Shown here: piece by piece, positions 1,203 through 18,388 of the stretch
How positions within the stretch are numbered: the first letter of the stretch is position 1
How the letters are laid out: each line of letters begins with the position of its first letter
Source: a virus
Strand: one strand, 5' to 3'
Length of the DNA: 22,666 nt
IMG/VR virus record: IMGVR_UViG_3300025687_004658
Coordinates: 1 to 22,666 of that record
Notes under the pieces: generated by a model
Databases searched by the model: none
Seen by the model: only the letters and a program-made list of their open reading frames with translations
What the model was told of the DNA's origin: nothing
Position numbers and translations under genes: made by a program

Positions 1203-2330
1203 ATGGCTAAACCATTTGATGTAAGTAAATTCCGCAAAGACATTACAAAGTCTATTGACGGGTTGAGCATTGGATTTAATGATCCAACAGATTGGATTTC
1301 AACAGGCAATTATGCTCTTAACTACCTTATCTCAGGCGATTTCCACAAGGGCGTGCCAATGGGTAAGGTTACTGTGTTTGCAGGCGAATCAGGTGCAGGT
1401 AAATCATACTTTGTATCCGGCAACATTGCTAAACACGCCCAACAACAGGGTATCTTTGTTGTAATGATTGACTCGGAAAACGCACTTGATGAACAGTGGC
1501 TACATGCGTTAGGCGTTGATACTTCGGAAGATAAACTACTAAAACTTAGCATGAGTATGATCGACGATGTTGCTAAGACTATTTCAATGTTTATGAAAGA
1601 TTATAAGTCAATGCCAGAAGAGGAACGTCCTAAGGTGTTGTTTATTATTGACTCGTTAGGCATGTTGTTAACACCTACAGATGTTGATCAGTTTGAAAAA
1701 GGCGATATGAAGGGCGACTTAGGTCGTAAGCCTAAGGCATTAACAGCACTTGTTCGTAATACTGTTAATATGATTGGTGCTTATAACGTAGGCTTAGTAG
1801 CAACTAATCACACATATGCTTCGCAAGATATGTTTGATCCAGACGACAAGATTTCAGGCGGTCAAGGCTTTATCTATGCATCATCTATTGTTGTAGCAAT
1901 GCGTAAGTTGAAGCTCAAAGAAGATGAAGATGGCAACAAGACTTCTGAGGTACAAGGTATTCGTGCTGCATGTAAGGTAATGAAGACACGCTATGCTAAA
2001 CCATTTGAAGCAGTTCAGGTTAAGATTCCGTATGAAACTGGTATGAATCCATATTCAGGGCTGGTTGATCTAGCAGAAAAGAAAGGGTTACTAACCAAGT
2101 CTGGTAACCGTTTGCGTTTTGTAGAACGTAGTTCAGGCGAAGAAGTACTTGCGTTCCGAAAGGCGTGGGAAACCAATGCCGACGGAATTCTTGATAGACT
2201 CATGCAAGATTTTGTTTTTGCTGAAGAACAGATAAGTAACGAAGAAGCAAACGTTGCAGATGATATTGTCGAAGATATCAATAACGACGTTGCTGTTACA
2301 GAAGGAGCAGAAGAAGAATATGAGTCCTGA
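1203..2330 (+). CDS. uvsX: UvsX RecA-like recombinase
   Basis: This 375-residue RecA/RAD51-family ATPase forms filaments on single-stranded DNA and promotes strand exchange in T4-type recombination-dependent replication. It has a Walker A GESGAGKS at 61-68, a Walker B VLFIIDS at 145-151, a D-S-E-N-A-L-D-E segment after strand 2 (90-97), and the DNA-binding loop region around 203-222 (TNHTY to ISGGQG). The C-terminal tail is acidic (EEEYES), as in single-strand-binding RecA relatives. Its length is close to T4 UvsX (about 390). The ATG is preceded by AAAGGA. The gene heads an operon with a small acidic protein and a UvsY-like gene, which supports the assignment. It overlaps the next gene by 11 bases. 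Confidence 0.95.
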   Translation: MAKPFDVSKFRKDITKSIDGLSIGFNDPTDWISTGNYALNYLISGDFHKGVPMGKVTVFAGESGAGKSYFVSGNIAKHAQQQGIFVVMIDSENALDEQWLHALGVDTSEDKLLKLSMSMIDDVAKTISMFMKDYKSMPEEERPKVLFIIDSLGMLLTPTDVDQFEKGDMKGDLGRKPKALTALVRNTVNMIGAYNVGLVATNHTYASQDMFDPDDKISGGQGFIYASSIVVAMRKLKLKEDEDGNKTSEVQGIRAACKVMKTRYAKPFEAVQVKIPYETGMNPYSGLVDLAEKKGLLTKSGNRLRFVERSSGEEVLAFRKAWETNADGILDRLMQDFVFAEEQISNEEANVADDIVEDINNDVAVTEGAEEEYES

Positions 2331-2574: not shown

Positions 2575-3026
2575 TGTGGTATAATAAAGTAACACAGGAT
2601 CTTTCTCAGCTTCCTGCGTTCATTGATTATTACAATGATGAATTGCAGGAAGCAAAGCGAGAAGTTCGCATTGGTGGTAATGTAGAACAAAATATTAAAT
2701 TATTGCCTGGTGTTACAGAGCATAGATTTAATCAGCTTCAAGAAATCGAAGCTGTGTTAAATTATCTCAATATTGAATTACGTAAAATTAGACGTAAGCA
2801 CTTTCAAAAATATTTAGAAGGTTATGCACGAGCATTAACAAGTCGTGACGCAGAAAAGTATGTCGATGGTGAAGGCGAAGTAATTGACATGGAAATGCTA
2901 ATCAATGAAGTAGCACTATTGCGCAATCGTTGGTTAGGCATTATGAAAGGTCTTGACACCAAGCAATGGCAAATGGGCCATATTGTTAAATTAAGAACAG
3001 CAGGAATGGAAGATGTCTCAGTTTAA
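2574..3026 (+). CDS. uvsY: UvsY-like recombination mediator
   Basis: This is a 150-residue protein, close to T4 UvsY (137). UvsY loads UvsX onto gp32-coated single-stranded DNA. The N-terminal part is a helical segment (LPAFIDYYNDELQEAKREV), then a long basic helix (LNIELRKIRRKHFQKYLEGY, about residues 67-86). A C-terminal segment, NRWLGIMKGLDTKQWQMGHI then VKLR (near 117-140), resembles the UvsY ending in which a long helix is followed by a 'RGF-x-IK' type motif. There is no catalytic motif, as expected. The neighbour uvsX is the strongest support. The start overlaps the previous stop (TAATG). The assignment rests on remembered family patterns, not on a search. Confidence 0.7.
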   Translation: MWYNKVTQDLSQLPAFIDYYNDELQEAKREVRIGGNVEQNIKLLPGVTEHRFNQLQEIEAVLNYLNIELRKIRRKHFQKYLEGYARALTSRDAEKYVDGEGEVIDMEMLINEVALLRNRWLGIMKGLDTKQWQMGHIVKLRTAGMEDVSV

Positions 3027-3756
3027 TCCAGGACAATCAACACTAGACTTGTTAGCAAGTTATGATACTTTTATGGAAAGTATTGATACATTAGTTGATA
3101 TGGGTTGCGGAAACGGCGATGACGTTGCTTGGTGGGCAACACGATCCATTGAGGACGATGATGGAAATCAAATTCCTCTAAACATTAAATGCTTAGGCGT
3201 TGATTTAATTTCTAATGTTCCTGCAATACGTCCGCACAAAAATGCAACGTACCGCAAAACAGATTTTGAAAAATTTAAATTGGAAAAAGCTGACAAGCCC
3301 GTTGACGTAATATGGTGTAATAATAGTTTTCAATATGCTATTAATCCCATTGAAACATTAAAGAACTGGTGGAAAGCAATGAGTGAAGGCGGAATGCTTG
3401 CATTGATTGTGCCATCAACCACTGAAATTACATATAATCGTTTAGACTTTACGCAACCAGAATATGTCTATCATCATTATACCACGGTTAATTTATTGCA
3501 TATGCTATCATTATCTGGATTTGATTGTGCATTTATGCAGAAGTTACCAGGCGACCCTTGGATCAAAGCGGTAGTATATAAAACAGCAATTGAGCCAATG
3601 GACCCACGTACTACACGTTGGTACCACATAGCAGAACATGATAATTTATTACCAGAATCTGCACGCAACAGTATTAACAAATTTGGTTATCTTAGACAAC
3701 AAGATCTCGTTCTTGAATGGCTTGATCATAGTCTGCATTGGCTTGGCGAAGATTAA
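3013..3756 (+). CDS. Class I SAM-dependent methyltransferase
   Basis: This is a 247-residue protein with the SAM-binding motif I VDMGCGNGDD (28-37), an acidic residue ending the next strand (LGVDLISN), a motif IV-like VDVIWCNNSFQY, and a post-motif G-G-M-L-A-L-I-V-P-S strand. The layout resembles small-molecule methyltransferases of the Tam/UbiE type, but the substrate is not readable. It overlaps the uvsY-like gene by 14 bases and ends its operon. It is the last gene before the 30-base gap that carries a late-type motif. The methyl acceptor could be a sugar, lipid, small molecule or nucleic acid. Confidence 0.85.
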   Translation: MSQFNPGQSTLDLLASYDTFMESIDTLVDMGCGNGDDVAWWATRSIEDDDGNQIPLNIKCLGVDLISNVPAIRPHKNATYRKTDFEKFKLEKADKPVDVIWCNNSFQYAINPIETLKNWWKAMSEGGMLALIVPSTTEITYNRLDFTQPEYVYHHYTTVNLLHMLSLSGFDCAFMQKLPGDPWIKAVVYKTAIEPMDPRTTRWYHIAEHDNLLPESARNSINKFGYLRQQDLVLEWLDHSLHWLGED

Positions 3757-3786: not shown

Positions 3787-4560
3787 ATGAAAATTGTAGT
3801 AGCCACCGGGGGTTTTGACCCTATCCACAGCGGACATATCCGCTATTTAGAAGCAGCAAAAGCGTTAGGTGCTTACTTGATTGTAGGTATAAATTCTGAT
3901 GACTGGCTCGAGCGTAAAAAAGGACGTTCGTTCATGCCATGGTCTGAGCGTGCTGCTATTGTTCGCGCATTAGGTTGTGTTGACGAAGTTATTGCTTTTG
4001 ATGACTCAGACGGATCTGCTTGTAAAGCAATTGAATATGCTCTTGGTGTTAAAAACGATACACGTAACTGGATTCCATTTGATAGTGTAATATTCGCTAA
4101 CGGCGGAGATAGAACTCGAGATAACATTCCAGAAATGGTATTTGAAGAAGTAGAGTTTGTGTTTGGAGTCGGCGGCGAAGATAAAGCAAATAGTAGCTCA
4201 TGGATACTTGAAGAATGGAAATCACCTAAAACCGTTCGACAATGGGGATACTATCGTGTATTGCACGAAGTAGAAGGTTGTAAAGTAAAAGAGCTTACAG
4301 TTGATCCGGGCAAAAGTTTGTCTATGCAAAAGCATGCACAACGTAATGAGTATTGGCTTGTTAGTGAAGGTAAGTGTATTGTTAATAGTAGATTAGAATC
4401 CGGATACACAATACCACCTAAACAATTAGAAAAGCATGATGAATTTACTATTATTTGTGGCGAGTGGCACCAACTAACTAATCCCTTTGATAAGCCGTGT
4501 AGAGTTGTAGAAATACAATACGGCAATCGCTGCGATGAAGACGACATTACAAGATTATGA
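3787..4560 (+). CDS. Cytidylyltransferase-like nucleotidyltransferase fused to a cupin domain
   Basis: This 257-residue protein has two domains. Residues 1-145 form an HxGH nucleotidyltransferase of the GCT/RfaE-C type: G-G-F-D-P-I-H-S-G-H at 8-17, the LIVGINSD strand (31-38), an ANGGD segment (104-108), and NSSS (135-138) in place of the usual ISTT. Such enzymes couple CTP or ATP to a sugar-phosphate or polyol-phosphate. Residues 153-250 form a cupin like the C-terminus of mannose-6-phosphate isomerase: H183/E188 in the first motif and H228 in the second (GEWHQLTNP). The fusion suggests one chain that both processes and activates a sugar phosphate. It opens the glycan island and overlaps the next gene by ATGA. 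Substrate and nucleotide are not determined. Confidence 0.85.
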   Translation: MKIVVATGGFDPIHSGHIRYLEAAKALGAYLIVGINSDDWLERKKGRSFMPWSERAAIVRALGCVDEVIAFDDSDGSACKAIEYALGVKNDTRNWIPFDSVIFANGGDRTRDNIPEMVFEEVEFVFGVGGEDKANSSSWILEEWKSPKTVRQWGYYRVLHEVEGCKVKELTVDPGKSLSMQKHAQRNEYWLVSEGKCIVNSRLESGYTIPPKQLEKHDEFTIICGEWHQLTNPFDKPCRVVEIQYGNRCDEDDITRL

Positions 4561-5240
4561 AACCAATTCCAATTTTTATAGGTTATGACCCGAGAGAAGC
4601 AATCGCATATCACACGTGTGCTAATTCGATCATTAGACACGCAAGTAAGCCAGTTTCTATTATCCCGCTTGCATTAAATTTATTTGATGATTACAAAGAA
4701 ACACACACAGATGGGTCAAATCACTTTATATACAGCAGATTTCTTGTTCCGCATTTAATGGATTATGTAGGTTGGGCAATTTTTATAGACGGTGATATGA
4801 TTGTGCGCGATGATATTGTTAAACTATGGGATTTGCGTGAAATGGACAAAGACGTAATGGTAGTTAAACACGACTATGAAACTAAGATGACAACAAAGTA
4901 TCTTGGTAGTAAAAATGAAAACTATCCACGTAAGAATTGGTCAAGTGTTATACTTTGGAATTGCAACAGCCACCCTAATAGGATATTAAAACCAGAATAC
5001 ATTCAAAAATCAACTGGTGCTCACTTACATCGTTTTAGTTGGCTTAAAGATGAACGCATTGGCGAACTACCTCCAGAATGGAACTGGCTTCCAGATGAAT
5101 ATGGTGAGAATCCCGATGCTAAGTTATTACATTATACATTAGGCACACCGAGTTTTCACGAATTTGCTAATACGCCAATGGGTAGTGAATGGCATCGAGA
5201 ACGTATTTTTACTGAGTATTGCGAACAGCACAATTTATGA
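4557..5240 (+). CDS. GT-A glycosyltransferase, GT8-like
   Basis: This is a 227-residue protein. The N-terminus PIPIFIGYDPREAIAYH followed by a Y-S-R-F-L-V-P segment (59-66) and the metal-binding D-G-D at 78-80 (IFIDGDM) are typical of GT8-type retaining enzymes that use nucleotide sugars. A C-terminal HYTLGTP segment supplies the usual late His. No membrane segment is visible, so it is probably cytoplasmic. It overlaps both neighbours by four bases (ATGA), so translation is coupled. Donor and acceptor are unknown. Confidence 0.88.
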   Translation: MKPIPIFIGYDPREAIAYHTCANSIIRHASKPVSIIPLALNLFDDYKETHTDGSNHFIYSRFLVPHLMDYVGWAIFIDGDMIVRDDIVKLWDLREMDKDVMVVKHDYETKMTTKYLGSKNENYPRKNWSSVILWNCNSHPNRILKPEYIQKSTGAHLHRFSWLKDERIGELPPEWNWLPDEYGENPDAKLLHYTLGTPSFHEFANTPMGSEWHRERIFTEYCEQHNL

Positions 5241-6178
5241 TAAAATTGTATGGAATTGAAGGCGCTTTAAAATCTGCATTTCCTGGATTGGAAAAAGGGT
5301 TAAAGCGTCACGGAGATCAATTTAAAACGGTCAATTATACACAAGCAGATGATGGCGATTGCTACATTCAAACAAATCTAATTAAGCCTAAAGTAATGCG
5401 TAATGCTGATCGTAATCTTGCATACAGTTATATACGGGATTCAGGTAAACCATATCTAGTGAACGAATCACCTAGTTTTAGACGTCACTTGGGTTGGGCT
5501 AGATTAGGTTGGTACAGCTATAAATGGACTGAAGGGTTGTTTGGTAATGAAAATTCTCCTCCGGATCGTTGGAATAAATTTGAAAGTGAAACTGGTATAA
5601 CATTTAAAGACTGGAATTCTCCAGGAGATTCGATACTTGTAATGTGTCAAAAAGAAGGTGATTCTAGCCTCTTAGAGATGTATGAAAAATATGATAGTTT
5701 TTATGATTGGCTTGAAGAATTAATTGTTGATATACGCAAGCACTCTGACAGACCTATTATTATACGCCCTCATCCTCGCAATAGGGAAAAAGGATTAAAG
5801 CTGGCAACAAAGTTGCAATTAAAATTAAACGATCCTACAATTACTGTAAGCCAAAACACAGATTCATTAGGTGATTATTTGTCAAGTCCAAATCGTGCTG
5901 ATGGGTTGTACCAAGATTTGAAACAAGCCTGGTGTGTAGTAACTTATAATAGTTTAAGTGCCATTGAAGCAATATGCGAAGGCATTCCAACATTTGCGTT
6001 AAACGACGGCTCGATGATTTGGCCTGTTGCACTTAAAGATTTGTCGCAGATAGAAAATTTACCTTACGACATAGATTTAACACAGTGGAAATACGATATT
6101 GCGTATACACAATGGACTGGTAAAGAGCATGCGTCGGGAGAGTCGTGGGCACATTTAAAACCACTGGTGTTCAAATGA
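5237..6178 (+). CDS. GT-B-like transferase, paralogue 1 (capsule-synthesis type)
   Basis: This is a 313-residue protein. ATG 5237 overlaps the previous stop as ATGA and is preferred over an upstream in-frame TTG (5219). The C-terminal half has DRPIIIRPHPR (171-181), then AWCVVTYNS (231-239), a LKDLSQIE segment and an ending W-x-Y-D-I-A-Y-T-Q-W. The R-P-H-P plus (T/Y)-x-S layout recalls the KpsS/KpsC-type capsule transferases of GT-B fold, though I could not check this. Four more genes here (7026, 7783, 8771 and 12775) share the same ordered motifs. It is the best-preserved copy, along with the 12775 copy, and likely transfers a sugar to a growing glycan. Confidence 0.75.
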   Translation: MIKLYGIEGALKSAFPGLEKGLKRHGDQFKTVNYTQADDGDCYIQTNLIKPKVMRNADRNLAYSYIRDSGKPYLVNESPSFRRHLGWARLGWYSYKWTEGLFGNENSPPDRWNKFESETGITFKDWNSPGDSILVMCQKEGDSSLLEMYEKYDSFYDWLEELIVDIRKHSDRPIIIRPHPRNREKGLKLATKLQLKLNDPTITVSQNTDSLGDYLSSPNRADGLYQDLKQAWCVVTYNSLSAIEAICEGIPTFALNDGSMIWPVALKDLSQIENLPYDIDLTQWKYDIAYTQWTGKEHASGESWAHLKPLVFK

Positions 6179-7029
6179 AAAGATTAGCAGTTACAACATT
6201 TAATCGTAGTTATTATGACGGATTAGCAAAACGTATGGTCGAAACGTTCATTGAGTTTTGGCCTAAGGACGTTATGCTGGTGTGTTATTTAGAAGATATG
6301 GACGCAAGCGAACTACCTAAAGCAGACAATGTAGTTGGACTTGATGTATTCGAACGTTGCAATCCCGGATTACAAAATTATTTAGATTTTATCGGAGATC
6401 ACTTCAGTAGAGGTTTTGCATATAAAGCATACACTTGGATTGATGCTGCAAGGAACAGAGAAGTAGATCAAGTTATCTATTTAGACGCTGACGTGATTAC
6501 ATATAAACCCGTTACTAATCAGTGGTTAGACACAGTACTACCTAAGAATAATTTAGTTGCATATATGGGTGTAACAATGAACAAGGGTAAATGGAAAGGT
6601 ATTAACAAACCTCATTCGGATTCAGGCCTGTATTGGTTCGATCCTAATCATCCTTACGCACAAAAGTTTGTTGATCGTTACGAAGACATCTATAACAGTC
6701 ATGTTATTAAAGAAGACAAAACTCGTTTTCCTAAACCTAACGATGCGTATGTGTTAATTGATTGTATATTAGATGCAGAAGCACACGGAGTAAAGTGTAG
6801 AGACTTTCATCCTGAACGTAAAGCGTTAAGTCCATTGAAAGAAACAGAACTCGGCAAATACTTTAGACATTTTAAAGCAGCACGCAAGCATGATCCTGAG
6901 ATGGATAAATTCATTGATGCTATACTTGCGGGTGCAGACCCAGAAAAATTAGAAGAAGAACATAAGGGCAAAGTTAAACTTAAAGAACAAACTGATACAC
7001 GATTTGTCAGAGAGTGGAAGAACAAGTGA
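6175..7029 (+). CDS. GT-A glycosyltransferase with DAD motif
   Basis: This is a 284-residue protein. ATG 6175 overlaps the previous stop as ATGA and is chosen over an upstream GTG (6145). The start LAVTTFNRSYYDGLAKRMVE is followed by YLDADV, a D-x-D at 104-106, that would bind metal and nucleotide sugar. Near the end, YFRHFKAARKH matches YLDHLKGARKH in the minus-strand protein at 11958-12764; the two also share the V-T-T-F start, so they are paralogues. A charged C-terminal extension of about 45 residues (E/K-rich) is unlike the paralogue and may be a coiled or docking tail. The acceptor is unknown. Confidence 0.87.
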   Translation: MKRLAVTTFNRSYYDGLAKRMVETFIEFWPKDVMLVCYLEDMDASELPKADNVVGLDVFERCNPGLQNYLDFIGDHFSRGFAYKAYTWIDAARNREVDQVIYLDADVITYKPVTNQWLDTVLPKNNLVAYMGVTMNKGKWKGINKPHSDSGLYWFDPNHPYAQKFVDRYEDIYNSHVIKEDKTRFPKPNDAYVLIDCILDAEAHGVKCRDFHPERKALSPLKETELGKYFRHFKAARKHDPEMDKFIDAILAGADPEKLEEEHKGKVKLKEQTDTRFVREWKNK

Positions 7030-7793
7030 TTTTCCTGAGTAAAGACGGGAAAGATAGATATGTTAACGACTTCGCTAAAGGAAGTGGTTCTATACCTGTT
7101 AACACTGAATTGTTTGATTACGATTCTAGTAATGAACCTATTGTACTTCGTGGAATACTTAAACATAAAATAATGAAACGTTGCTGGGAAGATGGCAGAG
7201 ATTTCTATTACGTAGACACTGGATATTTTGGAAATGAAGGCACTTGGAAATATTGGCACAGGATTGTTAAAAACAATCTGCAACACACTGATATTATACT
7301 TAGACCTGATGACAGATTTAAACAATTTAAAAAAACTATTCATAAATGGAAATACGGATCAAAAATTATAGTTGCATTGCCAGACGAAAAGCCGTGTAAA
7401 TTTTATGGAATAGATAGGGATATATGGATAGCGCATACCATTGACGCCTTAAAAAAACATACTGATAGACCTATTGTTATACGAGAACGAGCAAAGCAAC
7501 GGCAAACAAGAATCAACGAGCCTTTAGAACAAGCACTAAGTAATGACGTACATGCATTAGTTACATTTAACAGTAATGCAGCAACTGAAAGTGTATTTTT
7601 TGGTATTCCTGTATTTACATTGGCACCTAGTGCTGCACAACCAGTTGGGTTACAAGATTTGAGTAAAATTGAAACACCGTATTATCCAACTAACGATGAA
7701 CGTTATGCGTGGGCATGCCATTTAGCATATGGCCAGTTTCATATAAATGAAATGAAAACAGGAAAAGCATGGGATATATTAAATGAGAGTTAA
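7026..7793 (+). CDS. GT-B-like transferase, paralogue 2 (short, RPHP motif lost)
   Basis: This is a 255-residue protein. GTG 7026 overlaps the previous stop as GTGA, the same junction as elsewhere in this operon; an upstream in-frame GTG (7014) is less likely. It keeps the family frame: HTDRPIVIR (145-153), HALVTFNS (176-183), GIPVFTL, LQDLSKIE and LAYGQF. The otherwise conserved R-x-H-P is replaced by RERA (153-156) and the N-terminal half is shorter than in paralogues 1, 3 and 4. This copy may have lost or changed its activity, or may act as a partner subunit of another copy. It overlaps the next gene by 11 bases. Confidence 0.72.
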   Translation: MIFLSKDGKDRYVNDFAKGSGSIPVNTELFDYDSSNEPIVLRGILKHKIMKRCWEDGRDFYYVDTGYFGNEGTWKYWHRIVKNNLQHTDIILRPDDRFKQFKKTIHKWKYGSKIIVALPDEKPCKFYGIDRDIWIAHTIDALKKHTDRPIVIRERAKQRQTRINEPLEQALSNDVHALVTFNSNAATESVFFGIPVFTLAPSAAQPVGLQDLSKIETPYYPTNDERYAWACHLAYGQFHINEMKTGKAWDILNES

Positions 7794-8784
7794 AGTTTTT
7801 ATGAACTCTGCAGGACACAATTCAGAATATGAAGTGTTAAGGCGGTTTGGTGTTGGTATTCAATTAATGTTAGATAAAGACAAAGGTGGTTTTGCTAACT
7901 TTGATAGAACAATACGCAAAGGGCTAGACAACGTAGTAGACTTTGATTATAGTTTAGATTATAGTAATTGTGATGTCGCTGTTATTTTTGGTTCTTGGAA
8001 ACCACGAAAATCTGATCATCATATTATTAGAAACGATGTTGTAAGTAAAGCGCCAATATTTGTGTGTGTTGAAACACCGCTACTGACCCGCAAAGTTTTT
8101 CAACCTAACCAGTATTATCGCATTGGTGTTAATGGATTTATGAATCATGCTGCGTACTGGAACGCAGATAACCAAGACAGCTCGCGCTTTAAACAAATGG
8201 GCTTAGAATGGAATGGCTGGGCAGAAGATTTAGATGAGCGCGAGGAAATATTACTAGGATTGCAATTAGCTGGTGATGCATCAATGCGAGGTAATAGTGT
8301 TGTGGAATGGTGTGAAGATAGTATTCGCCGCATGCGCAAGTACACAGATGCTCCTATTCGTATTAGAACACACCCTGGTATTTCAGATCAGGGCTGGGAG
8401 AATTATTCTGGTTTGTTTAGAAACATTGCATTTGGTGAATATGGCGATATTCGTTTTTCAAATGGCAGAACTCGCCCTTGGGAAAAGGATATTGCTAATG
8501 CACGAGTAGTTGTAGCATATTCATCAGGGCTGTCTATTGATAGTGTATTAGCAGGTGTACCTGTTGTCGCATGCGACCCTGGTAACTTTGCCTGGGACAT
8601 TAGCTCACGGTTTGTAGAGGATGTTGTCAATCCAAAACTTGAAAAGCCAAAAACAGTTCAGCAATGGTTTAACAATTTAGCCTATTGTCAGTGGTCTGAA
8701 GAAGAAATGCAAAATGGTACAGCCTGGCAACACTTACTTCCTGCTATTGCAGCAGCACAGGAAAAGGACGATGATATCAGTTAA
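7783..8784 (+). CDS. GT-B-like transferase, paralogue 3
   Basis: This is a 333-residue protein. ATG 7783 overlaps the previous stop by 11 bases. The N-terminal half has CDVAVIFGSWKP (63-74), a motif shared in form with paralogues 4 and 5 (DVALVQGYV, DYAVIWSVLW). The C-terminal half has DAPIRIRTHPG (189-199), VVVAYSS (242-248), LAGVPVVACD and LAYCQW, ending in an acidic, Ala-rich tail. It keeps the R-x-H-P and the Ser loop, so it may be active. Acceptor and donor are unknown. Its divergence from paralogues 1 and 2 implies an old duplication or separate acquisition. Confidence 0.75.
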   Translation: MRVKVFMNSAGHNSEYEVLRRFGVGIQLMLDKDKGGFANFDRTIRKGLDNVVDFDYSLDYSNCDVAVIFGSWKPRKSDHHIIRNDVVSKAPIFVCVETPLLTRKVFQPNQYYRIGVNGFMNHAAYWNADNQDSSRFKQMGLEWNGWAEDLDEREEILLGLQLAGDASMRGNSVVEWCEDSIRRMRKYTDAPIRIRTHPGISDQGWENYSGLFRNIAFGEYGDIRFSNGRTRPWEKDIANARVVVAYSSGLSIDSVLAGVPVVACDPGNFAWDISSRFVEDVVNPKLEKPKTVQQWFNNLAYCQWSEEEMQNGTAWQHLLPAIAAAQEKDDDIS

Positions 8785-9715
8785 TGCCTATACGGGAGGC
8801 ATTCCTAAGAATAATAAAAACTTAGAAAAGCCTGCTATACTTGAGAATTTCATTCAAGGAGTTAATCGCTGTGGTGATTTTGGACAACTGCTGCAAAGTG
8901 AATGGCAACCTAGTGACGTAGCACTTGTGCAAGGCTATGTACACGAAGATTCGCCAAATACTCCGCATTTAATGGTTAGGCGTCGTGTAATGGAAGAACA
9001 ACAGCGGATTGGTAAGCATACTATATTCGTAGACTCAAATTTGTTTTTGTTTGCTGATCCTAATAATTCTGCGCACTATTTGCGTTACTCAATGGGCGGC
9101 GTATTTCCGACTACAGGCAATTATTTTGATATTAATCCTGTGTATGATCGTTGGCAACAAATACGCCGCGATATGGATATCAAATACAAGCCGTGGCGGA
9201 CCAATGGCGAGCATATATTAATTTGTTTGCAGCGCAACGGTGGCTGGTCAATGAAAGGGCTAGATAATCAAGACTGGGTCATTGATATAGTTAGACGTTT
9301 GCGAACTGTAACTGATCGTCCTATATGGATTCGCGGTCATCCAGGTGACAAACGTGCAGGTAAATATCTCAATTTGACAGAAAAGGCGTGCAAGTTAGGT
9401 GTACTTAAAAATATGAGTGTGAGTATTATAGATCATCGTAACAGAACACTACAGCAAGATTTAAAAAATGCATGGGCAACAGTTGTATACAATTCATCGC
9501 CCGCGGTAGCAAGTGCAATTACAGGTGTGCCTGTTTATGCAGATGACATTAACGATTGTCAGGCCCGTGATGTTGCATTTTCACGCTGGCAAGATATTGA
9601 AAATCCCAATATGCCTGATAGAGATAATTGGTTAGCAAAGTTAGCAATGAGTCATTGGAACTTTGAAGAACTTAAAAATGGCGATGCCTGGAAGCATATG
9701 CGAGATTATATATAA
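8771..9715 (+). CDS. GT-B-like transferase, paralogue 4
   Basis: This is a 314-residue protein. ATG 8771 has AAGGA (8764-8768) just upstream and is chosen over an in-frame start at 8714. Family motifs are DVALVQGYV (49-57), DRPIWIRGHPG (182-192), WATVVYNS (235-242), TGVPVYAD and LAMSHW near the end, followed by the shared G-D-A-W ending. Long Asn/Trp-rich loops differ from paralogue 3. Its stop overlaps the next start (TAATG). The R-x-H-P is intact (RGHP, 188-191). The catalytic role is inferred only from the motif pattern. Confidence 0.75.
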   Translation: MISVNAYTGGIPKNNKNLEKPAILENFIQGVNRCGDFGQLLQSEWQPSDVALVQGYVHEDSPNTPHLMVRRRVMEEQQRIGKHTIFVDSNLFLFADPNNSAHYLRYSMGGVFPTTGNYFDINPVYDRWQQIRRDMDIKYKPWRTNGEHILICLQRNGGWSMKGLDNQDWVIDIVRRLRTVTDRPIWIRGHPGDKRAGKYLNLTEKACKLGVLKNMSVSIIDHRNRTLQQDLKNAWATVVYNSSPAVASAITGVPVYADDINDCQARDVAFSRWQDIENPNMPDRDNWLAKLAMSHWNFEELKNGDAWKHMRDYI

Positions 9716-10236
9716 TGGAACACGAAGCCGTAGAGGAATTTTATAAATTAATTAACGTTTATAAACCTCGGACATATTGTGAAATTGGAACACACAACGG
9801 TTTAACTGCCGCAGGCGTAATTAAAGAAATGTTTAAGTATGTTGATCAAGTTACTTTTGATGGGTATGATGCATTTCAATCAGTGCCTGCTCGAGAGCAT
9901 AACGGTAAATCACAAGCAGGTGATGTGCATTATAAAAAGTGCGTTCGTCGAATGGAAGGTATTCAACATACACACAATTTAACTTGGACATTGCATAAAG
10001 GATTTACTACAGACACATTAATTACGCCTCGCAAATTTGATTTAGCGTACATTGATGGCGGGCATAGTTACGAAACCGTGTTACATGATTACAATATGCT
10101 TAAAGATTCGCATATTATTATTTTTGATGATTACAACTTAAACGAAGTTAAACGTGCTGTAGATTCAATTGGATTGGGATATCAGTTGCCATATACAGCA
10201 CGTAAGAAAAAGAAATGGGTTATTATTAACAAATGA
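9715..10236 (+). CDS. Small class I methyltransferase, Methyltransf_24-like
   Basis: This is a 173-residue protein with motif I CEIGTHNG (22-29), a V-x-F-D-G-Y segment, and the later IDGGHSYE (113-120) and IIFDDY (135-140). The D-G-x-H-x-Y and D-D-Y pair is typical of metal-assisted SAM O-methyltransferases of the CmcI/TylF-like fold, often acting on sugars or small molecules. The start is directly coupled to the GT gene before it (TAATG) and the end to the next methyltransferase (ATGA). Its place among transferase genes suggests it methylates a sugar residue, but the substrate is not proven. Confidence 0.85.
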   Translation: MEHEAVEEFYKLINVYKPRTYCEIGTHNGLTAAGVIKEMFKYVDQVTFDGYDAFQSVPAREHNGKSQAGDVHYKKCVRRMEGIQHTHNLTWTLHKGFTTDTLITPRKFDLAYIDGGHSYETVLHDYNMLKDSHIIIFDDYNLNEVKRAVDSIGLGYQLPYTARKKKKWVIINK

Positions 10237-10727
10237 AAATTGAATTTGGATGCGGCGAAACCCCCACACAATCAGACTTTAAAACCTGCGACATACGAGA
10301 TTTACCAGGTATAGATTTTGTATGTGCAGCCTGGGATATTGATCAACATGTTGCAGAGAACACAGTTGATGAAATATTCTCAAGACATTTCTTTGAACAT
10401 TTAACATTTCAGCAAGGCGAAACAGTATTAGAAAAGTGGCATAAGATTCTAAAGCCAGGCGGCCGCTGCGAAATGCTTGTGCCTAATATGACTATGCATA
10501 TTGAGCAATGGCTACGCAGAGAAACTGATAGAGATATAGAACATGCATGTGCAGGCTTTTGGGGATGGCAACGCGGAGAATTTGCAGATACTTGGGACGT
10601 TCATAAGTCAGGCTATGACGAAGAGCTACTTATTAAATTAGTATTACGTAAAGGATTTGTAAATGTGGAGTCATTTGCTAATCCAAAGAAAAGCAAACAC
10701 GTCCATTTAGCGTTTTACAAAGACTAA
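10233..10727 (+). CDS. Small SAM methyltransferase
   Basis: This is a 164-residue protein with an N-terminal IEFGCGETP (3-11) directly at the start, a DIFS/DEIFSRHFFEHL segment, and K-P-G-G (74-77). It resembles Methyltransf_11-type enzymes that begin with the SAM loop rather than with an extra domain. It is the last gene of the plus-strand operon. Its 3' end overlaps the 3' end of the minus-strand gene at 10707 by 21 bases, with no terminator between. The acceptor is unknown. Confidence 0.8.
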   Translation: MKIEFGCGETPTQSDFKTCDIRDLPGIDFVCAAWDIDQHVAENTVDEIFSRHFFEHLTFQQGETVLEKWHKILKPGGRCEMLVPNMTMHIEQWLRRETDRDIEHACAGFWGWQRGEFADTWDVHKSGYDEELLIKLVLRKGFVNVESFANPKKSKHVHLAFYKD

Positions 10728-11306
10728 CCCATGTTTGTGAACAAATGCAGTCTTGCTAATCTTCCACTTTGGTGGCTTTCCAGGTCTGGCAATGTTGGTG
10801 CGAGTGCCCATTGTAGTTATTTCTCTGATATCAGCAGTTAATTCTGGTGAATAATCAAAGCCATACTTTTTAAATACATCAATCCAATATTCTTCTGTGT
10901 TACAGTTAACATGATGATGCCCGCCTTTGCCAACAGGAGCATAAGTCATAATAACATATTTTCCACGCTGGAAGTCTTTCATAAAATTAGGTAAAAATTC
11001 TTCCCATACATGCTCTACAAACTCACAACTCCATACTAAATCTACTTCGATGTTTAATGGACTTGGTCCTTTTTCGTAATCGTGAATAGTAACAGGAACA
11101 TCTGGACGCTCTACTGCAAAGTCTCCGTCAATTCCTTGTGCGTTAATTCCTAAGTTGCGAGCAAGTTCAACCATGCCAGCTGGACCGCAGCCAATATCAA
11201 GCATTGTTTTAATGTTATAATTAGCGATCATATACTCTAGACTGCCTTGGTCTAAGTGAGTTTTGTTCATATGTCCGCCTAAATGTTTCGGAAGTTGGTT
11301 AGCCAT
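10707..11306 (-). CDS. SAM methyltransferase (minus-strand island)
   Basis: This is a 199-residue protein with motif I LDIGCGPAG (36-44), GIDGD as the second strand, a VDLVWSCEFVEHV segment, and a late G-K-G-G-H-H-H-V patch. The fold is class I methyltransferase. The C-terminal PGKPPKWKISKTAF looks like a lid. The start overlaps the gene upstream on the minus strand by eight bases. It is the last gene of the three-gene minus-strand unit. A His-rich loop is unusual for simple sugar methyltransferases and could bind metal. Confidence 0.82.
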   Translation of the reverse strand: MANQLPKHLGGHMNKTHLDQGSLEYMIANYNIKTMLDIGCGPAGMVELARNLGINAQGIDGDFAVERPDVPVTIHDYEKGPSPLNIEVDLVWSCEFVEHVWEEFLPNFMKDFQRGKYVIMTYAPVGKGGHHHVNCNTEEYWIDVFKKYGFDYSPELTADIREITTMGTRTNIARPGKPPKWKISKTAFVHKHGLVFVKR

Positions 11307-11961
11307 TGAGTAATTTCTCTATATTGTTGTATGTAATATATAATGTATTTTTCTTGCTACGACTCTTAAGTATGTAAGGATCAAACCACGACTTTAATTC
11401 TAAATTGCCCCAATGACTTTTTTGATCGACGGGTAATTTATTGTATCGACTGTCTAGTTTACTGCCAGAGTTAGCACTTATGTATAATGCACCATTGGTG
11501 TTTAGGTGGTTGCGTGCGTCTTTAAGGAAATATTGCCATTCTTCCTTTTCCCAGGCTCTTGGTCGTTGAGGAAAAAACGCTCGCATTGCTGTAATATAAT
11601 CATAGTTTTCTGTTAACAGCATTGGCTCAAAAGGATATACTAACATTTCTGTAAAAGGAATGTTAAAAAATTTGTAAGCAGGATCATATTCAGGACGTCC
11701 GGCAATGTCAGTGCCTATGCAGTTGTGTCCGTATAATTTACATATAAACGGAAACCAACCAGCACCTGTGCCAATGTCTAATAATTTTTTTGTAGAGTTG
11801 GAACAATGAAGATCTAAACCATGAGCAACATCAAGCTTCTCACCAATCCATTTGTCAATACGATCTTGTAGATAGCGGTTACCTATTGCGTTTCCAAGCT
11901 GGATAATTTTATCTAACCCGCCTGCTGCATCAACAACATCGTTTACGGTTAATTGTTTCAT
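11299..11961 (-). CDS. SAM methyltransferase with LDIGTGAGWF motif
   Basis: This is a 220-residue protein with motif I LDIGTGAGWF (61-70) and GTDIAG as strand 2. The motif IV region (YDYITAMRAFFPQR) ends with a hydrophobic patch. About 50 residues precede the SAM loop, so it has a helical cap. ATGA overlap joins it to the glycosyltransferase upstream, so the three minus-strand genes are co-translated. The substrate is unknown; context suggests a glycan or lipid-linked intermediate. Confidence 0.82.
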   Translation of the reverse strand: MKQLTVNDVVDAAGGLDKIIQLGNAIGNRYLQDRIDKWIGEKLDVAHGLDLHCSNSTKKLLDIGTGAGWFPFICKLYGHNCIGTDIAGRPEYDPAYKFFNIPFTEMLVYPFEPMLLTENYDYITAMRAFFPQRPRAWEKEEWQYFLKDARNHLNTNGALYISANSGSKLDSRYNKLPVDQKSHWGNLELKSWFDPYILKSRSKKNTLYITYNNIEKLLNG

Positions 11962-12764
11962 TGCCAGTATGCTTCTTTTCTATCCACTAATAAATCTTTT
12001 GTTTTGCTCTTGCCAAGATGTTTGCGAGCGCCTTTTAGATGATCTAAGTATGCTCCCCATTCAGAGTTAATAAGTGGATGTCCTTCGCCTTTAACAATAC
12101 CATCGCTCCAATCTTTTTGTGTAAGCGGCAATTGTTTGCGAACAGCATCAAATACAAACGAATCGTGCCATTCTTCTAATGTGAAAATACCATTTTCCGC
12201 ATCGTCGTAATATTCTTGAAATAACTTTAAGAAGTTTTGTGAGTGTCCAGACCGTAAGTTAATAGCATATAAGCCGCATTCAGAGAACTTACCACGGCGA
12301 CCTAAATAATATAAGTCACTACTGCCGTTGATTAAGCGATCAATATCTTCCTGGACAATAGGACTATGGCAAACCATATCGGCATCCATCCAAATTAAGT
12401 AATCTGTATCTGTATGTTTTGCTGCATGGAATATTGAATATACCTTGTGTGCAAAACGGATAGCATCCCACTTGAATCCTTTACCAGCATCCTTACGCAA
12501 AGAGCGCACAGGATCGTCAGATACGTCACCATTTGCCTTAGGAACCATACGCCACTTGCGCTTAAACGCAACTAATTCTGGCGATGCTTCTTCTAAGTTA
12601 AATACACTTAGATTTGGCGCAGACTCTGTAACTGAGCAGTTTTCTGCGTAGACGTATAACTTTACTGTAGCGGGCCAGTTTTCTAAAAACGATTTGATCA
12701 TACGTTTACCGTATAGTTCATAACCTGCTTGGTGAAATGTTGTAACTACTGTATAACTTGTCAT
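11958..12764 (-). CDS. GT-A glycosyltransferase with DAD motif (minus strand)
   Basis: This is a 268-residue protein. It begins YTVVTTFHQAGYELYGKRMI and has IWMDADM, a D-x-D at 127-129. YLDHLKGARKH in the C-terminal part parallels the 6175-7029 enzyme, so the two are paralogues placed on opposite strands. It has no long charged tail. It opens the minus-strand island: its ATG lies only 10 bases from the ATG of the plus-strand gene at 12775, with a CATAAATA promoter-like motif between. The donor sugar is unknown. Confidence 0.87.
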   Translation of the reverse strand: MTSYTVVTTFHQAGYELYGKRMIKSFLENWPATVKLYVYAENCSVTESAPNLSVFNLEEASPELVAFKRKWRMVPKANGDVSDDPVRSLRKDAGKGFKWDAIRFAHKVYSIFHAAKHTDTDYLIWMDADMVCHSPIVQEDIDRLINGSSDLYYLGRRGKFSECGLYAINLRSGHSQNFLKLFQEYYDDAENGIFTLEEWHDSFVFDAVRKQLPLTQKDWSDGIVKGEGHPLINSEWGAYLDHLKGARKHLGKSKTKDLLVDRKEAYWQ

Positions 12765-12769
12765 CCAGA

Positions 12770-12777
12770 TATTTATG
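12770..12777 (-). promoter_or_regulatory. T4-late-type promoter motif CATAAATA, minus strand
   Basis: Read on the minus strand, CATAAATA is followed by five bases and then the ATG of the 11958-12764 gene, so transcription would begin on that ATG. The first three bases (CAT) are the complement of the ATG of the plus-strand gene at 12775. The whole space between the divergent start codons is 10 bases, so no other promoter for the minus island is possible inside it. No Shine-Dalgarno is visible for either gene. Confidence 0.45.
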
Positions 12778-13623
12778 GCTCAAAAAACTATAGGATACTT
12801 TCCAAGATCAATTGCGCTCAATGGAAAAGAAGTAATAGATGCTTTTTTAAAAAGTTGCAAACAAGTAGGATTGTTACCAATTGAAAATGGAATGGATTGC
12901 GATTATGCTGTAATATGGAGCGTATTGTGGTCTGGGAGATTAGCAAGTAATCAACGTGTTTACGAACATTATAAATATCATAACAAACCTGTTATTGTAA
13001 TCGATGTTGGAGCATTGAGCCGAGGTAATACCTGGAAAGTAGCCATTAATAATATTAACGCTTTAGGATATTACGGACATACAGAAAACTTAGATCTAGA
13101 TAGACCTGCTAGACTTGGATTAACGTTAGCACCTACACAAACTAAAGATAATGGAAAAGTTTGTATTGCAATGCAACATAGAAGTTCGGAACAAGTTAAA
13201 GGTATTGATATTGAAAACTGGGTAGTAAAAACTTTTTACAACCTAAGAGAATACACAGACCGCCCAGTGGTAATACGTCCGCATCCTCGTTGTCAAGTTA
13301 ATATGGATAAACTACCGCATGATGTTGTGGTTGAAATGCCTAAGAAGGTTACTGGAACATATGATAGTTTTGATTTAGATTACAATTGGTATGCACTGAT
13401 AAATTACAACAGCGGCCCGGGTATTCAAGGTGCTATTGCTGGATGCTCTGTGATTGTAAATGAAAGTAGTTTAGCATATCCTATGTCAATGGAGTTAAGA
13501 GATTTATCAATGCCATATAAAGTTAACAGAGAGCAATGGTTCATTGAGATTGCACATACTGAATATACAGTTGACGAAATACGTGCTGGACTATGGTATA
13601 AACGTTTAGAAGGTGGATTGTGA
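12775..13623 (+). CDS. GT-B-like transferase, paralogue 5
   Basis: This is a 282-residue protein. The start is ATG 12775, with a divergent neighbour ten bases away. Motifs are DYAVIWSVLW (43-52), TDRPVVIRPHPR (161-172, full R-P-H-P), YALINYNS (206-213), LRDLSMPYK and EIAHTEY near the end. It keeps all five family motifs and so may be active. It stands apart from the 5237-9715 tandem set but has the same family layout. Its stop overlaps the next start as GTGA. A perfect TATAAATA at 12970-12977 lies inside it but is probably chance. Confidence 0.77.
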   Translation: MAQKTIGYFPRSIALNGKEVIDAFLKSCKQVGLLPIENGMDCDYAVIWSVLWSGRLASNQRVYEHYKYHNKPVIVIDVGALSRGNTWKVAINNINALGYYGHTENLDLDRPARLGLTLAPTQTKDNGKVCIAMQHRSSEQVKGIDIENWVVKTFYNLREYTDRPVVIRPHPRCQVNMDKLPHDVVVEMPKKVTGTYDSFDLDYNWYALINYNSGPGIQGAIAGCSVIVNESSLAYPMSMELRDLSMPYKVNREQWFIEIAHTEYTVDEIRAGLWYKRLEGGL

Positions 13624-14324
13624 TTGATTGTGCGTGCGTAATACATGGCGATGCATACGACTTTGAATATGTGCATAAGTTATATCGCGGATTAGAAAGA
13701 GGTTTTGGTAAACGTGCAATTACACTACATGTTTACACAGAAGAAGAAAGATTAGTTCCTGCTCCATATGTAAAGCACGTGCTACAGGATATGCGTAAAC
13801 ATAATTGTCGCAAGGGGTGGTGGTACAAAACACAATTATTTGATCGCAAGCAATTTAATGGACAGTTGATTTACTTTGATCTAGATGTAGCAATAACTGG
13901 AGATCTAACCTGGTTATTAGATCTAGACAATAAATACTTTTGGGGTATAAGAGATTTTCGTTATTTGTTTAATCCAAGGCGCAGAGAATTAAATTCTAGC
14001 GTAATGTACTTCAATACAGACAAATTTAATTATGTTTGGAGCGAGTTCAAACTCAGTCCAGAAACATATATGAATCGTTTACATGGAGATCAGAACTTTA
14101 TTGATCGACAAATTCCAGGAGAACAAAAACGTTTTTTTGATGAGAAGCGTGTTAAAAGTTGGCGATGGGAATTAGTTGACGGTGGGTATGACATTGAGAC
14201 TCGAAAGCATAAAGTTCCTGGAGCGGGAACAAAAATCCCCGCTGAAACTAGTATTGCAGTTTTTCACGGAAAACCTAAAATCCACGACATAAAAGATGCA
14301 ATTATCGATAAATATTGGTACTAG
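13620..14324 (+). CDS. GT-A glycosyltransferase with DLD motif
   Basis: This is a 234-residue protein that starts with GTG 13620, overlapping the previous stop (GTGA). Motifs are IYFDLDV, a D-x-D at 87-89; a NSSVMYF segment; GDQNF (156-160); and FHGKPK (215-220), the late His motif of GT8-like or related GT-A enzymes. It has no membrane segment. It is the last gene of the glycan island. It has no D-x-D paralogue elsewhere in the window and differs from the DAD pair. Confidence 0.87.
   Translation: MIDCACVIHGDAYDFEYVHKLYRGLERGFGKRAITLHVYTEEERLVPAPYVKHVLQDMRKHNCRKGWWYKTQLFDRKQFNGQLIYFDLDVAITGDLTWLLDLDNKYFWGIRDFRYLFNPRRRELNSSVMYFNTDKFNYVWSEFKLSPETYMNRLHGDQNFIDRQIPGEQKRFFDEKRVKSWRWELVDGGYDIETRKHKVPGAGTKIPAETSIAVFHGKPKIHDIKDAIIDKYWY
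14307..14314 (+). promoter_or_regulatory. T4-late-type promoter motif GATAAATA
   Basis: GATAAATA overlaps the end of the glycosyltransferase gene. A start about five bases later (near 14320) would leave a leader of about 34 bases containing the ribosome site GGAG (14342-14345) before ATG 14354. This spacing is like normal T4 late mRNAs and unlike the leaderless cases at 3774 and 12770. Confidence 0.55.
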
Positions 14325-16004: not shown

Positions 16005-17165
16005 ATGAGCCAGGATAATTATTGTCAAATTCCATTTTCGCACCTGTTTATAAACACATGGGGAGGTATCTCCCCATGCTGTGCGCATAAAATTGACCCA
16101 GACAAACAATTAAACATTGCCGACGATGAAAATTGGTTGCAAAATTGGTTAACAAGTGATTATTTGAAATCAGTTCAAGAATCGTTTATAGAAAATAAAC
16201 GGCATGTTGGATGTACCGACGAGTGCTGGGTCCCAGAAGATGCTGGTTTATCTAGCTTAAGAACAAGAACTGCTAATGAATATAAATTTTTAGGTGGAAA
16301 ACGAGCAATACAAAAATTAATCACTGCTGAAATACAAATTGGTAATTTGTGTAATTATGGTTGTTTGATGTGCGTTCCGCGATCGAGTTCTTTTATTCTA
16401 AAAGAAAACCTTGAAATAGGATTAGATAAGTTTAATAATAAATCACATTTGTGGAGAAACAAACCTCTTTTCAAAGAGCAATATAAGTGGTCCGACGAAG
16501 AAATTTCTAGACTAGAACAACTGCTAAATTTAGATTTACGATTGTTGACGGTTCGTGGTGGCGAACCTTTCTATAATAAAAAACTTTTAGAAATAATAAG
16601 AAAACTTCCAAGTGAAAAAGCCAGTACTATGATGCTTCATATTGATACCAATGCTAGTATTTGGAATGATAACTGGCAAGAAGTGTTAGAAAAGTTTAAA
16701 TTAGTACGTATTATGTTTTCTGTTGATGGTACAGACGATATATATGAATATATACGTTATCCAGGAATTTGGGAAATAACTAAGAATAATATACTTAAAA
16801 TTATTCAACTAAAAAATATTAATCCTGTGATACATTGTGTGGTACAGAACTTAAATATTAAGTACTTAGATTCCCTTATTGATTTTGCAGTAGAAAACAA
16901 TATACATATTAACTTAGTTACAGTAGAACAAGAATATCTACATAGTAAAAATCTAACAGACAATGATCGTAAAATTGCCATAGAAAATTTATCAAAATGG
17001 ATATCGACTAAAAAATATCCAGAATATATTGTTATACAGTTGCAAGCATTTCTAAATCTAATAGAGAAATCCAAATTTGATTTGGATAGATGGAACGAGT
17101 TTGTCGAATATGTTACAATTAAAGATACACATCGAGGAAATTCATACAAAAAGTTTTTAAACTAG
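16005..17165 (+). CDS. Radical-SAM enzyme with N-terminal cysteine-rich (twitch-like) domain
   Basis: This is a 386-residue protein. Cx3Cx2C is present as C116, C120, C123 (IGNLCNYGCLMC), which would hold the [4Fe-4S] cluster that cleaves SAM. GGEP (185-188) is the SAM-contact motif, and a VDGTDD segment near 240 follows. The N-terminal 75 residues hold five further cysteines (C7, C25, C26, C70, C74) and look like the auxiliary-cluster 'twitch' domain family. The enzyme class does difficult radical reactions; the substrate is unknown. The gene is very AT-rich (15 of 60 bases G or C at 16861-16920) next to a GC-rich one, so the two have different histories. It begins directly at the AAA stop, so it may be co-transcribed. 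Confidence 0.85.
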   Translation: MSQDNYCQIPFSHLFINTWGGISPCCAHKIDPDKQLNIADDENWLQNWLTSDYLKSVQESFIENKRHVGCTDECWVPEDAGLSSLRTRTANEYKFLGGKRAIQKLITAEIQIGNLCNYGCLMCVPRSSSFILKENLEIGLDKFNNKSHLWRNKPLFKEQYKWSDEEISRLEQLLNLDLRLLTVRGGEPFYNKKLLEIIRKLPSEKASTMMLHIDTNASIWNDNWQEVLEKFKLVRIMFSVDGTDDIYEYIRYPGIWEITKNNILKIIQLKNINPVIHCVVQNLNIKYLDSLIDFAVENNIHINLVTVEQEYLHSKNLTDNDRKIAIENLSKWISTKKYPEYIVIQLQAFLNLIEKSKFDLDRWNEFVEYVTIKDTHRGNSYKKFLN

Positions 17166-17260: not shown

Positions 17261-17266
17261 AGAAGC

Positions 17267-18388
17267 ATGATACGAAAAGTTGTAGACAGAGATTCAGCAC
17301 ATTTATGGATGCGAGAAAACTTGCGTTTTTCTCGCTATGACATTTCCTTTATGGAGAATGTGGCTCGTTTTATTTCTGATAATCGTTCGCTTACTGTTAA
17401 ACAAAATGGATTATGGGAAAAAATTGTACACAAGTACCGTAAACAAATTTTTGCAGAGTCTAATGGCGCTTTTGATGAAGAATACATTCTTAGTAAGCAA
17501 TGGATCAACCCAGTTGTAGAATTTGATCCAAGTTATGCACCACTACTATGGATTGATGCTGATATTATTAAATTACGTTTCCCATTTAATAAAGAAACAG
17601 TTAAAGACTTACGCACACTACTTCAAGATGCAGGACACGATTATGGATTAATGGTATCGTCGGAGAATCACGAGTACGTCCATTGGGATAAAAATGAACG
17701 TGTATGGCGTGGTACTGCATATCCTACATTAATTAGAGACTTATATTATTTTTCTAAGTTACACGAGTTCGCTGTTGACAAATCAGTTCAAGACATTGTA
17801 GACAGTATACACGGCGATGAGTTTAATTGGTGCCCTTTTGCTGAGTTACATAACGATGGCTATATGGTAAGCAACCTAAGTCCTGGTTTATTAAAAGCAT
17901 TGCCCCCAAACAAATTGACACTTGAAGTTGCGAGAGATTTAGTTGGAATGGACATTACATTAAGCGATGCATTCCAAAGCCGCATTGCTCACGAATACGG
18001 ATATAACTTGGGTCGTATTGCTTGTACTCGAGAGTTAACAATTACTGCTAGCGAAGTTAAAGTAGTTAAAGAGTGGATCAATAACACTGATAACAATTTA
18101 GTTATTATCCATAAAGTTAGCAACGATAATATAATTTGGGATCAACCAGCGCAACCTGATACACTTGTTCCGGAAAAATCTTTTAGCATTGCAGATTTAA
18201 GGTTAACTGGAAAGGGGTTAGGTGATTACTATGTGTTTAGTAGTGATGGCGATAACTATACATTGGATAATGGGGTTGATTGTGTAGTTTATATGCCAGG
18301 AACAGCGTTTAATTACGAAGCACTTGCACATATCGCTAAGAAAGTTATTACAGTAGTAGAAGATGAAACAAGCACGACTAATAATTAA
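17267..18388 (+). CDS. Conserved protein of unknown function upstream of uvsW
   Basis: This is a 373-residue protein. ATG 17267 is chosen because the promoter -10 lies just upstream; an in-frame TTG at 17249 would precede it. The N-terminal part has an RYDISFMENVARFIS segment and a LTVKQNGLWEKIVHKYRKQI segment, a layout I associate with N-terminal regions of phage replication/helicase proteins. No Walker motif or zinc site is visible. A long central part follows, and the C-terminal 100 residues are beta-rich. Because uvsW overlaps it by 26 bases, it may work with the helicase. The family cannot be named from sequence alone. Confidence 0.8.
   Translation: MIRKVVDRDSAHLWMRENLRFSRYDISFMENVARFISDNRSLTVKQNGLWEKIVHKYRKQIFAESNGAFDEEYILSKQWINPVVEFDPSYAPLLWIDADIIKLRFPFNKETVKDLRTLLQDAGHDYGLMVSSENHEYVHWDKNERVWRGTAYPTLIRDLYYFSKLHEFAVDKSVQDIVDSIHGDEFNWCPFAELHNDGYMVSNLSPGLLKALPPNKLTLEVARDLVGMDITLSDAFQSRIAHEYGYNLGRIACTRELTITASEVKVVKEWINNTDNNLVIIHKVSNDNIIWDQPAQPDTLVPEKSFSIADLRLTGKGLGDYYVFSSDGDNYTLDNGVDCVVYMPGTAFNYEALAHIAKKVITVVEDETSTTNN

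Follow-up and report, generated by a model that had tools for sequence, protein, structure and literature searches.

The closest described enzymes to the genes considered here are KpsC, WbbB and KrkA, multi-module proteins (PMC10148158, PMC9587256, PMC12887879) of the retaining β-transferases of 3-deoxy-D-manno-oct-2-ulosonic acid (Kdo), with a fold thought to descend from sialyltransferase-like enzymes (PMC9587256). The retaining Kdo transferases require the aspartate of a QxxxD motif, which carries the Kdo adduct, the histidine of an HP motif, which protonates cytidine monophosphate (CMP), and a glutamate base (PMC10148158, PMC9587256), and KrkA draws its base from another element (PMC12887879). 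In phages, kdsA and kdsB are filed by a survey as lipopolysaccharide-type auxiliary genes only (PMC10653327), and the glycosyltransferases (GTs) of pelagimyophages have been proposed to alter the host O-chain in a study in which Kdo goes unmentioned (PMC7029224). The window analyzed here is the entire 22,666-bp IMG/VR virus record IMGVR_UViG_3300025687_004658, from a marine virus of bacteria, classed as linear and probably a fragment, and carries five genes, labelled A to E by their order along the window (Table 1), that appear to be ancient paralogs in a chiefly viral branch, as yet without a name, of the retaining β-Kdo transferase fold. Literature searches found no paper on this family.

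All five open reading frames (ORFs) are open, overlap or nearly abut their neighbours, and encode single modules of 255-333 amino acids. Every one of the ten pairs is detected in two-sequence BLASTP comparisons (E 1e-8 to 1e-24, identity 20-34%), the strongest being A-D (1e-24), C-D (7e-24) and A-C (5e-21), followed by A-E (7e-15), A-B (1e-14), D-E and D-B (~2e-13), with B-E (1e-11), C-E (3e-11) and B-C (1e-8) the weakest, which bears out the claim of a sequence-only reading of this DNA that the five genes form one family. Copy D used as a query against the whole record retrieves the other four copies and nothing else. None of the five has a confident family match in Pfam, PHROGs or NCBIfam.

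AlphaFold models of copy D (ma8f34465a593; predicted local distance difference test (pLDDT) 95.9, predicted template modeling score (pTM) 0.92) and copy B (m9910920d78f9; pLDDT 96.0, pTM 0.90) were built from alignments of 87 and 78 sequences drawn from the window and the fetched loci only. For both models the top PDB matches are KpsC (GT107), WbbB (GT99) and KrkA (GT140), with other GT-B enzymes and UDP-N-acetylglucosamine epimerases ranking below the Kdo transferases. Copy D matches KpsC with a Foldseek E of 5e-8 and a VIA Z of 14.5 (root mean square deviation (rmsd) 3.9 over 236 residues), and copy B with a Foldseek E of 4e-5 and a VIA Z of 12.1 (rmsd 4.8 over 233 residues). The modelled D and B proteins have a modified GT-B fold with KpsC, WbbB and KrkA as the nearest structures, so that the KpsC-type GT-B assignment proposed from the letters of the DNA holds for the fold; copies A, C and E are tied to the same predicted fold through their homology to D and B. 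In single hhalign comparisons the orthologous group of copy A aligns with KpsC at E 1.9e-5 and with KpsS-like proteins at 3.5e-6, the values for C, D, E and B being weaker (B with KpsS-like proteins 2.5e-5), and the QKEGD of A is placed on the QTFND of KpsC, D142 matching Asp160, with HP on HP. The Pfam family PF05159 Capsule_synth is matched weakly by 9 of 48 members of groups A and C (E up to 1, best 1.7e-5) and by none of the five window proteins, even at E 1.

A scan of viral contigs returned at least 580 relatives, with 1-6 copies per fetched locus. The window copies are nearest to orthologs in other contigs (71-92% identical; 79-81% for the copy A orthologs in loci L007 and L034), compared with 20-34% among themselves. 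Trees were calculated with 216 rows (FastTree) and 60 rows (IQ-TREE), and each copy lies in its own group forming one side of a branch, with Shimodaira-Hasegawa approximate likelihood ratio test (SH-aLRT) values of 93-100 in the IQ-TREE analysis. A tree constrained to unite the window's five copies in a single clade is rejected by the approximately unbiased test (p-AU 3.6e-42), which removes the duplication within this phage lineage that had been raised for the locus. The five copies are old paralogs, each an orthologous group found in many marine viral contigs, and not recent duplicates. The genes mostly follow the order (A)-B-(C)-D-E, the stretch retrieved holds exactly B D E in 46 loci, and two clear members of one group, mostly B, occur in 23 of 153 loci. 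The sequence-only reading had offered two uses for several copies of one fold, and separate old groups, mostly one per locus in a conserved order, favour serial addition of sugars over a repertoire for variation. A fast-changing repertoire is not supported by the identity of the orthologs in the nearest relatives or by the ratio of nonsynonymous to synonymous polymorphism (pN/pS), which is 0.11-0.39 for all five genes against close orthologs with synonymous sites near saturation in several pairs; yet B is duplicated in some relatives.

The catalytic residues were read at the base, glutamine, nucleophile, arginine and histidine positions in a family alignment of 216 representatives, in which the spacing from the glutamine to the nucleophile aligns gap-free and the base place is assigned by sequence alignment, not coordinates. 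Group A is E-Q-D-R-H in 33 of 36 representatives and group C in 13 of 13, with Glu, Gln and Asp present throughout both groups (36/36 and 13/13) and the HP histidine in 33 and 13. Group D is D-Q-G-R-H in 45 of 47, the nucleophile place being Gly in 45 and Asn in 2, and group E is E-Q-S-R-H in 37 of 41, with Ser at the nucleophile place in all 41 and window copy E reading D-Q-S-R-H; the HP histidine is kept in every representative of D (47/47) and E (41/41). Group B is mostly D-P-x-R-K/R, with P, V, A, S or I at the nucleophile place and Lys or Arg replacing the HP histidine in 48 of 48. At the base position Glu is found in groups A (36/36), C (13/13) and E (37/41), and Asp in groups D (47/47) and B (47/48). 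Only A and C retain the whole known catalytic set, and loss of the nucleophile is a fixed group trait in B, D and E, which lack the QxxxD motif and, as judged from the alignment, are not filed as retaining Kdo transferases. By the same residues the five copies are not catalytically equivalent, and the low pN/pS values suggest that the nucleophile-free copies are maintained and not decaying. The motifs listed by the sequence-only reading are real apart from small errors (B has IRERA for IRxHP, A has GIPT for GxPV, and E ends in AGLWY); upstream of them, and missed, lies QxxxD or its replacement, the more telling motif. Invariant in all five copies (A numbering) are R111, W158, D171, P173, I176, R177, S239, G249, P276, W284, A289, E297 and G301.

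The likely sugar donor is indicated by gene linkage in relatives of the window. A gene of the CMP-sugar synthetase family PF02348 is present in 3 of 11 large related contigs, each a few kb from the GT genes, and in the two contigs tested against NCBIfam its product scores best as CMP-Kdo synthetase, below the cut-offs of the models and far above pseudaminate cytidylyltransferase. In one of these contigs the KdsA adjoining the synthetase exceeds the cut-offs of two KDO-8-P synthase models, and in the other it exceeds that of one model. Viral contigs were also searched with one phage KdsA, the best 80 of 181 loci being taken and dereplicated at 90% identity. Members of the GT family lie upstream of kdsA on the same strand, at 3.8-6.8 kb, in 22 of the 24 dereplicated loci with at least 6.5 kb upstream, which points to a Kdo donor, and KdsB is encoded in the same locus in 34 of 36 dereplicated loci, its gene overlapping kdsA in many. 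The kdsA-kdsB pair lies ~2 kb beyond uvsW in relatives, and kdsA is found in 7 of the 14 GT loci with at least 5.5 kb after E. This linkage gives indirect support to CMP-β-Kdo as the donor, and in A and C a covalent Kdo adduct and retention of configuration would be expected.

The kdsA and kdsB-like genes are located downstream of uvsW in three T4-like marine phage contigs (L152:14960-16394 in G011, L151:15084-16515 in G003 and L153:8042-10507, minus strand, in G013), and in G013 a uroporphyrinogen decarboxylase gene stands between them. Homologs of the window ORFs at 21380 and 21789 occur in 87 and 85 fetched loci, respectively; the gene after kdsB in G011 was expected to correspond to the zinc-finger-like ORF at 21789, and the ORF chosen matched no locus. 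Contig G011 also has a peptide deformylase gene near the island (L152:18264-18770), a gene type reported for pelagimyophages as well (PMC7029224).

Among the phage records with relatives of the five genes are Caulobacter jumbo phages, Pelagibacter phage Mosig and a Manatee Spring phage, and the closest phage records for the UvsX and UvsW of the window are jumbo T4-like phages, some of them alphaproteobacterial. In one SAR11 single-cell genome a D-type gene (L112:8001-8909) is flanked by guaA and by cellular genes; it is nested inside phage D (support 100), probably reflecting phage-to-host transfer, and a SAR11 B-type gene is sister to phage B (99). The scan with the D-group alignment found one SAR11 locus and says little of the other groups. 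The full-profile genome search did better: in the GTDB family to which that SAR11 genome belongs, 66 of 110 genomes have a family member, compared with 21 of 385 in the class sample, which points to a SAR11-type bacterium as the likely host. Nine SAR11 regions (L302-L310) each have a family gene that is either B-like, lacking the nucleophile, or A-like, with D-Q-D-R-H, together with 2-oxoglutarate-Fe(II) oxygenases, methyltransferases and other variable genes, forming a candidate surface-modification island, and several adjoin genes that by eye are purH-like and thymidine kinase-like. Two adjacent family members are present in each of two larger alphaproteobacterial genomes (G165:C94:98888-100346, L129, and G396:C1:736155-737481, L130), the neighbours in G165 appearing phage-like by eye. 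In Caulobacter phage CcrColossus (L114:4246-8799) the family member belongs to a cluster of transferase genes close to a tail protein, and one gene there carries a sialyltransferase-like annotation.

The island containing the five copies extends from uvsX to uvsW (Table 1) and includes at least five methyltransferase-like genes as well as a radical S-adenosylmethionine (SAM) gene. Among 152 related loci, homologs of the GT2-like gene (11958) are present in 130, of the first GT8 gene (4557) in 112, of the RfaE-like-cupin fusion (3787) in 94 and of the ORF at 6145 in 73. In relatives, B and GT8 form a single ORF, with GT8 N-terminal, in 41 of the 127 loci with B.

Table 1. Positions of copies A to E and of neighbouring genes in the 22,666-bp window
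Feature	Position	Strand	Remarks
UvsX/RecA-like recombinase	1203..2330	+	PF00154; left island border
SAM methyltransferase	3013..3756	+	in island
RfaE-like cytidylyltransferase domain fused to mannose-6-phosphate isomerase-type cupin	3787..4560	+	PF01467 E 4e-15, PF01050 E 1e-19
GT8-family glycosyltransferase	4557..5240	+	Pfam PF01501 E 2.4e-8
Copy A	5237..6178	+	predicted GT-B, retaining β-Kdo transferase-like; catalytic signature complete: E77, Q138xxxD142, R177, H179-P
ORF between A and B, putative GT-A-like sugar transferase	6145..7029	+	no significant family match
Copy B	7026..7793	+	GTG start; P119xxxP123, no nucleophile; R155 in place of HP histidine
Copy C	7783..8784	+	catalytic signature complete: E97, Q161xxxD165, R195, H197-P
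Copy D	8771..9715	+	Q154xxxG158, nucleophile lost; D88 at base position; H190-P retained
SAM methyltransferase (Methyltransf_24)	9715..10236	+	
SAM methyltransferase (Methyltransf_11)	10233..10727	+	
Probable SAM methyltransferase	10707..11306	-	below Pfam cut-off
Probable SAM methyltransferase	11299..11961	-	below Pfam cut-off
GT2-like glycosyltransferase	11958..12764	-	Pfam PF00535 E 3.6e-5
Copy E	12775..13623	+	Q134xxxS138, nucleophile lost; D77 at base position; H170-P retained
GT8-like / PHROG 1962 glycosyltransferase	13620..14324	+	phrog_1962 E 7.6e-23
Radical SAM protein	16005-17165		homologs in only 5/152 related loci
379-amino acid ORF before uvsW	17249-18388		no family match; homolog in only 1 related locus
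UvsW-like helicase	18363..19823	+	right island border

The interpretation preferred here, to which a probability of about 0.6 is assigned, is that the five ancient Kdo-transferase-like paralogs belong to a CMP-Kdo-using glycan assembly line whose product remodels the surface of a SAR11-type host or decorates the virion. The copies would act together with the GT8/GT2-type transferases, the methyltransferases and the sugar cytidylyltransferase to build one acidic, probably methylated glycan. For A and C the most likely reaction is a retaining transfer of Kdo, or of a closely similar ulosonic acid, from CMP. By analogy with KpsC and WbbB, CMP-Kdo would bind and be attacked by Asp142 in A or Asp165 in C to give a covalent sugar adduct, His179 or His197 would protonate the leaving CMP, and the adduct would be passed to an acceptor activated by Glu77 or Glu97. 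D and E have lost the nucleophile but still have an acidic residue at the base position as well as the HP histidine, a combination from which one-step inverting transfer from a CMP-sugar would be expected, as in sialyltransferase-like enzymes. B, which is often fused to the GT8 enzyme, probably works as its partner domain. The most likely role of the product is to remodel a surface glycan of the SAR11-type host, itself a carrier of family members, and a Kdo-containing host-surface glycan could block coinfection, as proposed for the pelagimyophage transferases (PMC7029224). A stricter version is tentative and on balance doubtful: A and C would be retaining through the adduct while the nucleophile-free D and E invert the same CMP-sugar, so that a single chain would contain both β- and α-Kdo linkages, and in many lineages the CMP-Kdo would also come from the phage. 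If true, paralogs within a single island would have undergone a natural switch in glycosyltransferase mechanism.

Several observations weigh against the assembly line as described. Direct PDB profile searches by sequence return nothing significant against the solved Kdo transferases, and fold alone does not prove function. The window is without kdsA or kdsB and host CMP-Kdo would have to serve. The kdsA loci were recovered with one KdsA and are related by descent, so that the linkage count is valid for its relatives only and the linkage is partly inherited synteny. In 10 of 17 kdsA contigs the available sequence has B-D-E and no A/C-type copy, and a Kdo donor in those ten would need a nucleophile-free copy or another enzyme; D or E is for this reason suspected to use CMP-Kdo as well.

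The place of the product is the next point of doubt, and the main alternative, a glycan that decorates the virion (its capsid, its tail fibre or another part) and not the host surface, is less probable than not but carries appreciable weight. The CcrColossus family member sits among other transferases, at a distance of two genes from a large tail protein, the Mosig member is beside a sulfotransferase and methyltransferases, and no priming transferase, flippase or ligase is seen among the window proteins searched. Against a virion location, no virion gene is recognised in the window, and in SAR11 chromosomes, where there is no virion, family members share an island with further modification genes. 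The identity of the sugar is a second uncertainty within the assembly line, as A and C may draw on a different CMP-sugar (a nonulosonic acid, for instance legionaminic or pseudaminic acid), the kdsA-kdsB linkage then being inherited synteny without shared function. The Kdo-contacting residues differ even between KpsC and WbbB (PMC10148158), so that the sugar cannot be read from the catalytic set alone, and half of the informative GT loci (7/14) are without kdsA; the neighbouring synthetase, however, is best as CMP-Kdo synthetase and stands beside a KdsA over the NCBIfam cut-off. Another sugar is judged unlikely. An inactive role for B, D and E, as scaffold or regulatory paralogs supporting A, C or other transferases, is likewise judged improbable. 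The fixed loss of the nucleophile, the additional loss of the HP histidine in B and the fusion of B to a GT8 domain in 41 loci would suit such a role, whereas B-D-E is the most conserved core, making up the whole set in the stretch retrieved for 46 loci, and D and E are under purifying selection, all their representatives having kept an acid together with the HP histidine. The base glucosyltransferases of T4 are GT-B enzymes, and the T4-like background with uvsX and uvsW could suggest α-/β-glucosyltransferase-like modification of phage DNA bases. This is judged very unlikely. The best folds are Kdo transferases and not DNA transferases, kdsA and kdsB are linked to the family, restriction systems are rare in SAR11 (PMC7029224), and a thymidylate synthase/hydroxymethylase-type gene (PF00303) is found in only 1 of 11 related, possibly incomplete, contigs.

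These findings place a large set of marine phage genes, unnamed in general libraries, in a structural family with a likely sugar donor and host group, and offer a possible reason for the presence of kdsA and kdsB in some of the phages. With the catalytic residues so strictly divided among paralogs, it becomes testable how Kdo transferases gain or lose the double-displacement mechanism, and a family common to phages and SAR11 chromosomes offers a handle on the surface glycans of very abundant ocean bacteria.

Among known systems, the GT islands in variable regions of T4-like SAR11 phages likewise contain GT8, rfaE-like and radical SAM genes (PMC7029224); unlike these, the present island lies between uvsX and uvsW, two genes whose nearest counterparts are in jumbo phages, and has five Kdo-transferase-like paralogs. 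Several same-fold copies in one virus are also found in Tetraselmis virus 1, a giant algal virus with at least four capsule polysaccharide-type proteins of the same predicted fold (BFVD A0A2P0VNK4, A0A2P0VP54, A0A2P0VP74 and A0A2P0VP72), a likeness at the level of predicted fold; no Kdo link was found in the literature on this virus. The KpsS-like proteins (PF05159 KpsC/KpsS) have HP and NS motifs in common with the phage family. The GT99 module of WbbB and the GT140 module of KrkA have the same fold by Foldseek and VIA at 8-15% identity, are larger and are linked to further modules, much like the B-GT8 fusion in relatives, and the WbbB motif QVEDDS resembles the QKEGDS of copy A. KpsC is a dual-module retaining β-Kdo transferase of group 2 capsules, whereas the phage copies are single-module; A and C have the Glu base, the QxxxD nucleophile and the HP histidine in the same order as KpsC, and differences are the phage-borne location, the nucleophile gone from three of the five copies and the lack of a significant direct match in the PDB search. 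Compared with these enzymes the fold is known and the chemistry probably is as well, and what is unusual is the division of the catalytic residues among conserved paralogs of a large, mostly viral branch.

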